A stretch of DNA of 64,000 nt from positions 59,223,504-59,287,503 of the forward strand of contig NC_090280.1 of the NCBI RefSeq assembly GCF_037392515.1, in the 5' to 3' direction. The notes under the pieces were generated by a model, which searched no databases, was not told the origin of the DNA, and was given only the letters and a program-made list of their open reading frames with translations. The stretch comes from Haliotis asinina. Taxonomy: Eukaryota > Mollusca > Gastropoda > Lepetellida > Haliotidae. Both the position numbers and the translations under genes were made by a program. Shown here piece after piece: positions 588-6,500 of the stretch (positions are counted from its first letter, which is position 1; each line of letters starts with the position of its first letter).

Positions 588-3500
588 GTAGGTAATCATA
601 TGATCTGCATGGGGCGTCAGCATAAGAACAAGTTCTCACACACATGCCTCAGGACCATAGAAAAGCTTTGTTAAGTTTTACCAATTTGCAAGTAACCATG
701 TCCTGGTTTTTCCTGTTACAGAATATCTGAAATATACAGGATATTCTGATCTGAACAGGTTATGGGATGAAACTGAAAGAGAAAGGTTTTACACTTAAGT
801 AATCATTTCATGGAATTGGGCTCATGGCATCATTCCTATTATTTTCTACATGGTAAAGAATCAATAATCATGCTTTTGAATACTAGTAGTATGATGATAT
901 TATTTCTGAATTGATTATGATGTATGCCTTACAACATAGTATGCTGATTGTGTCCAGCTGTAGATCATGTACACATCTGCTGTACGTTTTTTTAAACTAT
1001 GTACAGAAGTGTGAACACCTTCTGATGAATTTTTTTTTGTAATTTTGATTTGCTGCATGCAAGCATGTAGACGGCAATCCCCAAATGCCTTTTCTGTCTG
1101 TCTGTAATATATCTATCTAAATCGCCTGCTGTATTTTCCTGTGTCTAATTCATCATTTCAAGTAGACACTACTGAGGGGACGCTTGTGTGTGGTACATTG
1201 AACTCAGTATGTGTTTCAATTTGCACACAGTGTTGAGGATAGCTTGTCAACAACACTTGCATTTACCTTGTATCCCAACAAACCTGAAATGACCAGTGCT
1301 AGAATTGATGTTAAGTTACCAGTGCTTGTCAAAAGAGGGAAGTAACAGTTGGTCAGGCAAGCTTGACTTGGTTGACCAGTCATTGTACACCAACCACGAA
1401 AATGGATGCTCATGTTTAATTATCACTGGATCGTCTAGTCCAGATTTGATAAATTACAGACTGCTGCCGTATAGATGAATTATTGCAGACTGCGACGTAA
1501 AACTAAACTCACACACTTATGTCCTGATGTATTGTTTGTGCTGTGGTAGTTTTATGGTTTCACAGGGTGATTCAACGTGTTTGAGCAAACATCTTTCAAA
1601 AGAAAAGTATTGACTAAAATTTGAGACAAATTTCATCCCAAAATGTGTTTTTAAATTTGTGTCGAATTTGGCTGTGGGATAGATGGAAGTGTGATTAAAT
1701 CAATATTGTAAACAAAAAGACACTGTGCTCTGTAATCTGATTGGTTGAAAAACATGATCAAATGGTATTTGATTGCCAGAAACTGCAAGACTATTCTCTG
1801 CGTATTGACACGTGAAAACATCGCAAACAATTGTTTTGTTGTGTCATCAACAATGGTGACACCATTCAGATCAAAGTCAGAATGACGTCACAAATAAGCA
1901 GCTCCAGATGCTACCATGGGAACCAGCTGAAACGAACAGCCAAAGACGCTTCAGTGCTGTAGCCGTACTTGATGTAAACGAGTGCGGACAGTAAAACCCT
2001 TTGGTTTACTTTTTTGGTTACAGTGTCAATAAACATCATATGTTTGGCCAATTTCCAGTTGTAATTAGTATTTCAAGCACAGGAATTTTCATTTGAAACC
2101 TTGGGCTGACGCCATCTGTTCCAAATGTATTCCCATACTTCAAAGGTTTCAAATACTCAATAACATCCGGAAATTGGCCAACATATGATGTTTTATCTCC
2201 TAATGAAATCATGGAATCATTCAGTATAAAGTGTATTTTACAAAAGGACCAGATAGCCATAAACCTTGTGAATCATGCTGTTGAAACCATCAGTAGAACA
2301 TGCTTTCTAGCTCTATTTACTTATAATTTAAACTAGCTGAAGGATTTGATGGTGGTTGGAACCGACTGCTACCATGACTCAGCAAAGAAGGGTCGCTCTG
2401 TGGGTGGAGTGATTGCAAGTCTTAACCCACTTCTTACCCGCTTCTACTCGCGCTGTACCTTCCAACACAATATGCAGGAGTTAATGGATGGCCTGAAGAT
2501 CTGTATGAATGGTTGGTTCACCTGGCTGCCTGACGTTCAGTTTTAGCTGCTTGCATGTTGCGTAGGCTGAGTTTTCAGCTGTTGTTTGTTTTAAGCTTCA
2601 GCATGTGCTGTGAAGGTGGTATCGGTTCTGGGTATCTGACGGAAACACATATTCATGAAATTATTGAAATGACAATATCCGATCATGAATATTAGGCATG
2701 GTTTACAAAATAACTACATCTACCTACCCAAAATGGTGATTTCAGTGGAAGCTGTCTTAACCAGTAACCATTATGACTGAAGAAACAATTAGATTTAGAC
2801 AATGTGCCGGATGGTAGAGCTGATGATAAATGTACAAGGCACAGATGGGACGGAAAGGGACAGGATTTTACGGCAGTGTTGACAACTTGCCGGATCAGGC
2901 AGAGGACAGTTTTGATAGCTTCCACTTTACATGTAAATACCCTAACCACACCACACGTCCCCAATGTTTGAAGTTGTTCGGGCATTTAACCAGAACAAAG
3001 CTTACCTTGTTTTGTCAGGTCCATGCCTGATGCATCATGTGTGTCAAAGCTAAGAGGATAACATTTTCTGATTTGTTAAACATTACCTCTGATGGCTAAC
3101 CCATCTCATAATACTGAAAATTAGTTATCATGGAATCAGTGTTTCTTTCAAATCCAGAGGCCTTTGCTATATAACCTGCATTCTTCTGATCACAAGTTCG
3201 AAGCATGGTGTTTTGATAGTTTGTCAGGAAAGAAGCACAAGTGATCATTGACACAGGCTTCTATGTCGATCCTAATGATGACTAGATTATTATGGAAAAC
3301 TCCACATTAAGTAGATTATAGATGTGTTCGGGAATTTTTCCAAAATAGTTTAGGTTATTTTCTTGCTATTTTTTTTCTTTTCCTGTTTGGCTGTCCAATC
3401 AATACATTATTTGGAGGCCTGCTGATATTCAGTATGATCACTTGTTTACTAACATCATCTCTGCATGTTGCCAGGAATTTGGCATTGTTAATTCTTATTC

Positions 3501-6500
3501 ATTTCATGTTCATTATTTGTTTGTTATTAATACGTGACTGTTTTGCATGTTCAGCTGAGCCTCACGATGGTCATTGGTATTGACACGTATCATGACTCTG
3601 CCAAGAAAGGTCGTTCTGTAGCTGGTGTAGTAGCCAGTGTGAACAAGAATTTGACCAGGTATTACAGCAAATGCACGTTCCAGTTCACCCACCAAGAGTT
3701 GGTGGATGGTCTTCGAACGTCTTTCACAGGTAAGTCACATTTGTTGTTTTGTCTCTCTCTCTCTCAAGTCACCACATGGGTACAACATGTGAAGCCCATT
3801 TCTGGTGTCTGCAGCTGGAGTATTACTAAAAGTGGCATAAAAACATACCTAAGTGTTAGTTTATATGAATTGACATTTTATGGTTAGAAATTACAAATGC
3901 ACTTTGTTTTGTATTTTTGTTTTGTTTTGTGGGTTTTTTTTGTGGGTTTTTGTTGGTTTTCTTTATTTGATTTTTGTAATGTTTATAAATGTGTCACAGG
4001 CAGTGACAGAAGTACAGGTTAAACATTGTGTTCTTATGAAACTGGCCAGATAATGCTGTGTGTGAAAAGGGAAAGAACCCCAGAAATTTGTCATGTTCAA
4101 AAGTTGTTGCATGAAGGCAGAACTCAGAAATGTCTGAGCTGTTAACCCTTTCCAGTGCATTCTAGTTATACTGGCTTCATGATCTTACAAGAGACCTGAG
4201 TATCTGTTATAAACAGTGCCTTCAGCAACCCATGCTTGTCGTTAGACAACTTACAGGATCAGGTGGCTAGGCTCTTTGACTTAGTTGACATGTCATCACA
4301 TCCCATATGTGTAGATTGATGTTCATACTGTTGACCAATGGATTGTCTGGTCTATTATTTACAGACTGTCAGCGTATAGCTTAAATATTGCTGAGTGCAT
4401 TGTAAAACTCTTCCCACATAGAAGTTTGAAGGCCTGGCATTTCAGACATAAAATCATCTGAACAATCTGGGGACGGACAGATGACCTAATGGTCAAAGCA
4501 TTCGCTGATCATGCAGAAGACCCTGAATCAATTCCCAATATGGGTACAATATGTGTAGCCCTTTCAGGTGTCTCCTGCTGTGATTTTGCTGGAATATTGT
4601 TAAAAGTGGTGTAAAACCATACTCACTCCTTCATTCATGCAACCATTTTAGGTACATTCACAGTGATGCTGTGTTGCAAACGCTGATGTGAACATTAACA
4701 TGTTGCAGGAGCGTTGAAGAAGTTCCATGAAGTTAACGGTAAACTGCCTGAGAAGATCATCGTGTACCGAGATGGTGTGGGAGATGGCCAGCTGCCTGCA
4801 GTGTATGAACATGAAGTGCCACAGATGATCCAGGCCATCAAGAGGAGTGGAGGTGCTGAATACGAGTATGTTGCCCTCTTTTATCCAAGACTTGTACAGT
4901 GTATGAAATAAGGCCTGTCAGACCGCATGAGACTGGCTAGATTTCTGATGGGCGATCTAAATTTCCAACTAGCCAATCCAATTGACTGGTGAAAAAATTA
5001 GATGTTCCATACATTTGAGAAAATTCACATTACTTAGTGTCTGGTCAGTTGATTTGAATTTAGGGCTAGTGACATTTGAAAGTTACCAGCCCGTATGTCT
5101 GGCTAGGTTTTTGGCTTATTTCATTCTCTGACTTATAGTATAAAGTTGAATATTGGTTATCAAATGTATTTGTTTGTGATGCCCCGAAGATAGAGATAAT
5201 TATTAATCATTGTTTATGACAACTTTTTTATGTAAAAGTAACTATTTCAGAGGGATCTGATTTAAAATAGGTCTCAAATAGTTATTACTTATCATTGATT
5301 AATTCATGGAGGCTTTTTCTGAGCAGTGATCACAGTCCTTGAATATGTTTTGCAAGGCTTATTTCCTGTTCAAATGCATACAAAGTTTCAGCAAGTTTGA
5401 CTGAAATTTGAGACATAATTCACTGTTGTTTTCACCAAATACTTTATATGACTGTGAATTAACAGTACAGTTAATTTACATGGCAATGATTAACTTAGAA
5501 CAGGTTAAGATATCCTGTGCAACACTATCAGAAATGTGTAATGAACCATGTTAGAATTATTCTTAAAGCATTTTGGGGTCATAGGGTAGTCTCATGGTTA
5601 AATCGTTAGCTTGTTCCTCTGAAGACCCAGGTTCAGTTCACTGCATGGATATGTGTGAAGCTATGTACAACTTCTTTCTGTCTCTCTCACTGTCAGTCTC
5701 ATAACCCATGTTAATCATGAGAGGACTAACCAGTTCAGGTGCCACATACAGTTGATGGTTGATTGGTTGATGCAAGTCATCAAATGCTAATTGCCAACAG
5801 TAATGCTTAGTGTGGCTGTGACTAGAATGACATACGTTTTCATGGATTATTAACAAAAGAGATTTCTGAAAAGTTTTTATACCCAGGCCATGATTAAAGC
5901 CTTACAATTGTGTATTGTTTGAGAAAAAAAAAAATTTTTTTCTATCAGAAAAGTTCAGTGTATGATGTAATCGATAACACAATTTTCTTGTCCACAATCA
6001 TTAATAAATTTTCCTAACAAAGCTATATATCCGATTATCAGTCATTTAGTCAGCCCTATGGATGTTTCTATTATGTTACCACAGCCCCAAGATTGCTGTT
6101 GTGATTGTGAAGAAGCGAATCAATGCCAGGTTCTTTGCCAAGAATGGCCCTAACACAGGCAACCCAATGCCAGGCACAGTCATCGACAGTGAAGTCACCA
6201 AGCCTGAGTGGTAAGTCTGCCCATGTACACCTGTTGCAGTCCATCAGTTACCATATTTGGAGGTTAATAGGTGTTGGTTCTTGGCAGGCATGTATCCTAC
6301 AATATTCCTTTTCAGCAGATTTATCGTTACAGTGAAACAGTAAATAGCTTTTGTGGTCAAACCCTAGGCAAGAGAGTTTGTTCAAAATTGCCTCTGTTCA
6401 CCCACTGGAAAATGGAGACCAAGTAGTACAAGTCATATGACTATTTAGCTTCTGGCGCCTCACAGGCAGCTTTGGTTATTCAGAATAATAATGTCCTTGG

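Follow-up and report, generated by a model that had tools for sequence, protein, structure and literature searches.

Mutually exclusive exons can be predicted from length, reading frame, homology and splice sites (Pillmann et al. 2011, PMC3228551), features that in the same study are shared by 90 of 16180 non-exclusive exons of the fly X chromosome. Most human tandem duplicated exons of this type are of ancient origin (PMC9741552), and a survey across several model organisms includes nine events touching catalytic residues (PMC7954323). We describe a pair of such candidate exons in a Piwi gene of the abalone Haliotis asinina, located in a 64,000 nucleotide (nt) stretch of contig NC_090280.1 (RefSeq assembly GCF_037392515.1, positions 59,223,504 to 59,287,503, forward strand), hereafter termed the window. 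Exon A (2337-2511) and exon B (3555-3729), both 175 nt long and on the forward strand, encode two versions of the same segment of the slicer active site; both are probably functional and used in a mutually exclusive manner. They resemble homologous mutually exclusive exons (PMC3228551, PMC9741552) in equal length, phase, homology, age and predicted single inclusion, and differ from that class in that the splicing of the abalone pair is predicted from genome sequence.

What can be regarded as the nearest analogue in mechanism, also present in molluscs, is the choice between exons 6a and 6e of coq-2 in helminths, annelids and molluscs (PMC7434440, PMC8659336), likewise a homologous swap in the core of an enzyme that alters its active site. 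COQ-2, however, switches substrate through two known residues, whereas the catalytic residues encoded by A and B are identical. The nearest Argonaute case is shrimp Argonaute-1 (PMC3510085), the isoforms of which (Ago1A, Ago1B and Ago1C) are ascribed to alternative splicing and also change the PIWI domain, although through an 81 nt optional insert in an AGO-clade protein rather than a homologous exon swap in a Piwi catalytic core. Loop swaps between AGO10 and AGO2 (PMC10240194) indicate that targeting and product release can be tuned by slight alterations to this part of the PIWI domain, but these were engineered between species and concern the PIWI loop, which A and B have in common. Similarly, changes to the finger and its anchors in Drosophila Piwi, which has the tetrad DVDK (PMC7015924), bear on slicing versus target holding; that gene has undergone a fixed loss of slicing, whereas A and B keep the finger Glu and the anchors. 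A preprint on piRNAs and splicing (PMC12636506), considered as a precedent, was set aside as it concerns a different subject. No Piwi or Argonaute with mutually exclusive homologous exons was present among the literature matches listed, most subscription journals and abalone isoform annotations lying outside their reach. The splicing architecture is already known, and its place in a Piwi appears new among those matches, with no claim being made to a first sighting.

Positions are given in window coordinates, negative values lying upstream of the window; the contig on which it sits is denoted C1 of the 1.14 Gb genome. For the gene model, 50 kb upstream of the window were added, the Piwi exons located and the splice sites set. 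The model consists of 17 constitutive coding exons plus either A or B as the 14th coding exon, with its start codon at -15486 (15.5 kb before the window begins) and a stop codon at 7707. The two isoforms, each of 880 residues, differ only within residues 641-698. The best relative of isoform B among solved structures is Piwi-like protein 1, which matches residues 1-880 with 982 bits. Both isoforms exceed the Pfam cut-offs for Piwi_N, PAZ and Piwi, in that order, and match PF02171 across the domain (336.5 and 341.4 bits); ArgoN, at 28.7 bits, falls under its cut-off of 30.9. The N terminus of the product is arginine-glycine-rich. The tetrad, assigned from motif and alignment to the residues named in PMC7015924, is Asp650-Glu688-Asp720-His855 in both isoforms, with Asp650 and Glu688 lying in the swapped exon and Asp720 and His855 in constant ones. 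By these features the gene is classed as a PIWI-clade Argonaute of the PIWIL1 type, predicted to bind piRNAs and cleave their targets.

The alternative exons had been proposed in a sequence-only reading of the window, and their coordinates and open translations proved exact to the base, as did the identity of 36 of the 58 residues (62%), which is accompanied by identity at 104 of 175 bases. Also as described there, each exon supplies the catalytic Asp and Glu; His653 and Ser661 are encoded by both as well. The preceding constitutive exon (463-587, spliced model) ends ..WAVEIP in phase 0, A and B have GT-AG ends with phase 0 in and phase 1 out, and the following constitutive exon (4709-4865, its 3' end taken from sequence reading and model), which carries Asp720, is entered in phase 1. 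The sequence features of homologous mutually exclusive exons are all present: A and B are neighbouring internal exons of 175/175 nt with the same phases, homologous sequence and GT-AG ends. Downstream, the spliced model has constitutive exons at 6085-6210 and 6943-7090 and a last coding exon at 7591-7707, which carries His855 and ends in TAA, all on the forward strand.

Among the features of the introns flanking the pair, an inverted repeat at 2031-2193 in the intron before A (46 nt arms, 72% complementary, with a 71 nt spacer) is possibly a small mobile element, and two segments of the intron after B, 3764-3848 and 4528-4622, with matching parts of 37 nt at 81% and 35 nt at 83%, resemble interspersed repeat copies.

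The frame relationships of the pair bear directly on its use. In the spliced model, joining A to B leads to a stop after 707 residues, nine codons into B, while omitting both leads to a stop after residue 642 (..EIPER followed by the stop), the next exon then reading GAG CGT TGA. Either exon alone yields 880 residues, such that a full-length protein results only when one of the two is included, as had been claimed. Stops upstream of further exon junctions are generally expected to cause degradation of the transcript, and both of these stops are so placed; hence transcripts with both exons or with neither would be expected to be degraded. Nonsense-mediated decay may in this way remove the wrong products, with the reading frame enforcing one-at-a-time use. 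The same frameshift would also serve an arrangement in which B is constitutive and A a poison exon, the addition of which lowers Piwi through nonsense-mediated decay, and to which both the stop nine codons into B and the stronger donor of B are suited. This is quite improbable: nothing requires a poison exon to conserve its protein sequence, but the catalytic Asp, His, Ser and Glu are all retained in A, and the branch of A in the tree described below is no longer than that of B.

In searches of the abalone's own genome with exon A and with exon B, each of which scored four candidates, A matched B with an E value of 8.5e-18. Besides the self-match and the match to its partner, either exon hit a single exon of a Piwi gene on contig C5, with nothing further at E <= 0.1. 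The resemblance of A and B is not due to chance. Scans for stray mollusc DNA, with B in a bacterial and archaeal collection and with A in a viral one, showed no relative. The C5 gene is probably PIWIL2-like, its segment grouping with PIWIL2 with a support of only 55, and an AGO-like gene lies on contig C3.

A strongly diverged Piwi-like gene lies on the minus strand at C1:61127666-61132562, 1.9 Mb from the gene described here, with one exon clear by tblastn (E 4.8e-11) and two weak (E 0.004 and 0.023). Its presence on the same contig lends some colour to an extremely improbable alternative, that the second exon is an assembly artefact or collapsed paralogue originating from another Piwi copy. 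No match to the A/B segment was present at the diverged gene, however, in a 40 kb search there or in the genome searches, and it was rejected as a donor of either exon. Furthermore, the exons lie 1 kb apart without gaps (there is no N between them) and fit one frame and phase, and an assembly duplicate would be near-identical, which A and B are not. Some abalones carry a second, diverged phPiwi, and one rePiwi is reported for each of the molluscs covered in the same survey (PMC12479628); the word 'exon' has no match in the main text of that paper. The diverged C1 gene is possibly such an additional phPiwi, and a complement of two PIWIL1-like genes, one of them diverged, and one PIWIL2-like gene would agree with that report if phPiwi and rePiwi correspond to these classes.

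A and B differ at 71 bases, 36 of them at third codon positions, and at 12 of 16 fourfold sites, with a non-synonymous divergence (dN) of 0.35-0.39 by three methods. Their 300 nt flanks align no better than shuffled sequence, leaving no residual intron similarity. In a tree of six sequences (A, B and four other Piwis; 58 columns), A and B group apart from the four others with an ultrafast bootstrap of 88, which suggests that the duplication occurred later than the split from vertebrate PIWIL1, unless the exons have since been homogenised, and gives no finer date. The branches of A (0.36) and B (0.42) lie inside the range of the four other Piwis (0.29-0.60), indicating that neither copy has sped up.

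Neither copy shows decay by these comparisons, a point that bears on the possibility that A (or B) is an unspliced relic while the other exon is constitutive. Duplicates often decay, and the donor of A is weak at 3.89 bits, compared with 12.65 for that of B, but two of the gene's 15 other donors are weaker still. Of the 23 residues invariant in the panel of other Piwis, A keeps 19 and B 17; neither exon has a stop or frameshift, and the splice dinucleotides are intact in spite of the fourfold differences. Neutral simulations, of 2000 runs from each exon per level with an open frame and at least 36 identities as the criterion, gave 0/2000 from A and 0/2000 from B at each of 0.5, 0.75 and 1.0 substitutions per site. 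At 0.3 substitutions per site 72 (A) and 94 (B) of 2000 runs retained both properties, rising to 518 (A) and 594 (B) at 0.2, a level at which very recent loss is compatible with the observations. The simulations exclude long neglect of either exon, and not very recent loss. With the two branch lengths also similar, a relic is improbable.

The existence of two isoforms from one gene, as put forward in the sequence-only reading, is favoured by the frame logic, the constraint on both copies, their usable splice sites and their uniqueness in the genome, all of which are properties of the sequence that would fit mutually exclusive use. The accompanying suggestion that the isoforms have different active-site strands and neighbouring loops held in part. 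With the limits of strand, loop and helix in the exon assumed from Argonaute structures, the 22 differences among 58 residues affect the strand that leads up to the Asp (5 of 9 positions), a turn (3 of 6), the finger loop just before the Glu (3 of 5; HNM in one version, FTH in the other) and the helix after it (6 of 10), with five of the 28 positions elsewhere also differing. The PIWI loop (exon residues 15-21), by contrast, has no difference at its seven positions, and the catalytic and anchoring residues are all kept. In human AGO2 the catalytic Glu lies on a flexible finger held through His600, which is stabilised by Ser610, and Arg668 (PMC7015924); from their offset to the Asp, His653 and Ser661, identical in A and B, are the counterparts of His600 and Ser610.

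Catalysis should survive in both isoforms, and the product of the pair is likely to be two differently tuned slicers rather than an on/off switch. A functional difference is plausible, and would likely consist in cleavage rate, cofactor need or binding partner. The history we propose starts with an old tandem duplication of the 14th coding exon in a PIWIL1-type gene, which would have come under mutually exclusive splicing. Both isoforms would cut, but the movement that brings the glutamate finger into position would differ between them, as would the helix to its rear, and the two should accordingly be unequal in cleavage rate, need for the cofactor GTSF1 or partner binding. Slicing is inherently weak in all the PIWI proteins examined by PMC9385479, in which GTSF1 speeds the PIWIs of mouse, silkworm and sponge.

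Splice signals offer some candidates for the regulation of the choice. The donor of B is a perfect consensus, and that of A lies inside the range of the 15 other donors of the gene (2.91-12.53 bits). The acceptors of A and B are alike, that of A having a pyrimidine content of 0.60 compared with 0.45-0.80 in the 16 other acceptors. Three copies of UGCAUG, a candidate Rbfox-type motif, lie close to the exons on the forward strand: one starts at nt 41 of the intron after A (2552-2557), one is 93-88 nt before B (3462-3467) and one, 11-6 nt ahead of B, falls inside the 3' splice region of that exon (3544-3549). There is thus one copy in the 100 nt after A and two in the 100 nt before B, relative to a background of 0.0475 per 100 nt, and the 100 nt stretches that precede A and follow B have none. 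The coding strand of 588-4708 has six copies in all and the opposite strand three, and there are eight on each strand in the other 16.6 kb of intron in the gene. Rbfox proteins promote an exon when bound after it and block one when bound before it, and by this rule the sites as placed would tip the choice towards A in the presence of Rbfox. An Rbfox-type protein may choose between the exons, promoting A through the site after it and blocking B through those before it, with B, by virtue of its strong donor, perhaps the default. The genome contains an exon for a Rbfox-like RRM (85% over 33 residues), and Rbfox control is best treated as a lead, and a weak one. A TC-repeat just past the donor of B (3752-3765, forward strand) could be a PTB-like tract or a plain microsatellite. 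As for pairing between intron RNAs, the real minima lay under those of a single shuffle in each of the 3 intron pairs, and four window pairs picked from the scan had z scores of -1.75, -3.02, -2.99 and -2.06. The segment 2512-2591, just past the donor of A, takes part in two of these four, its partner lying in the intron before A in one and in that after B in the other.

Several points weigh against this account of exclusive use, regulation and differing function. The exclusive use of A and B is deduced from the genome of a single species. The intron separating them measures 1043 nt, a length at which steric hindrance would not keep the exons apart, and exclusion would need regulation or decay. 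Since the fourfold sites suggest that silent sites are saturated, the synonymous divergence (dS) is ill-defined (1.98 by LWL85, 20.4 by maximum likelihood and no value by NG86), giving no sound estimate. UGCAUG is commoner than expected window-wide (66 copies counting both strands, where 49.3 are expected; 2 of 100 shuffles had as many), and its pattern was spotted by eye before counting, when many motifs could have been tried. The Fox-1_C Pfam model had no match in the genome, yet it had none in the controls either. Likewise, the best pairing, with a z score of -3.0, was found among about 2,600 window pairs scanned, and 2 of 150 shuffles were as low.

Lastly, 17 of the 22 differences between A and B fall at sites variable among the four other Piwis and five at sites invariant there, so the isoforms may work alike. 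An unlikely reading, though one to be taken seriously, is accordingly that both exons are used and their proteins are equivalent, the choice between them mattering for splicing only or representing drift. The catalytic and anchor residues kept in the exon and the common PIWI loop are in keeping with equivalence; the long maintenance of both copies, and the concentration of differences ahead of the Asp, ahead of the Glu and within the helix instead of evenly through the segment, are not.

Piwi diversity is known mainly from separate genes, and in molluscs piRNAs are active both in the gonads and in somatic tissues. Were two functional, exclusively used exons borne out, one gene would make two slicers, and a piRNA effector would be controlled by splicing. 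Two natural versions of the first Asp and finger, similarly conserved and in one protein background, would also provide a ready-made test of what limits slicing by PIWI proteins. More tentatively, and with some doubt, a splicing switch, perhaps driven by Rbfox, could toggle one Piwi between two slicers of unlike finger speed or GTSF1 need. An animal with both somatic and germline piRNAs would then balance fast cutting against long target holding with one gene, no further Piwi locus being needed.

Elsewhere in the window, all on the minus strand, two adjoining open frames at 54943-55962 look like a split Tc1/mariner transposase from motifs seen by eye, and open frames at 61507-63326 resemble immunoglobulin-like domains, also by eye. 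Two further open frames at 12314-14556 consist of short repeats (MDSPRNR-like and GHSKGGAGQAQEIV-like) and look like low-complexity or secreted repeat proteins.

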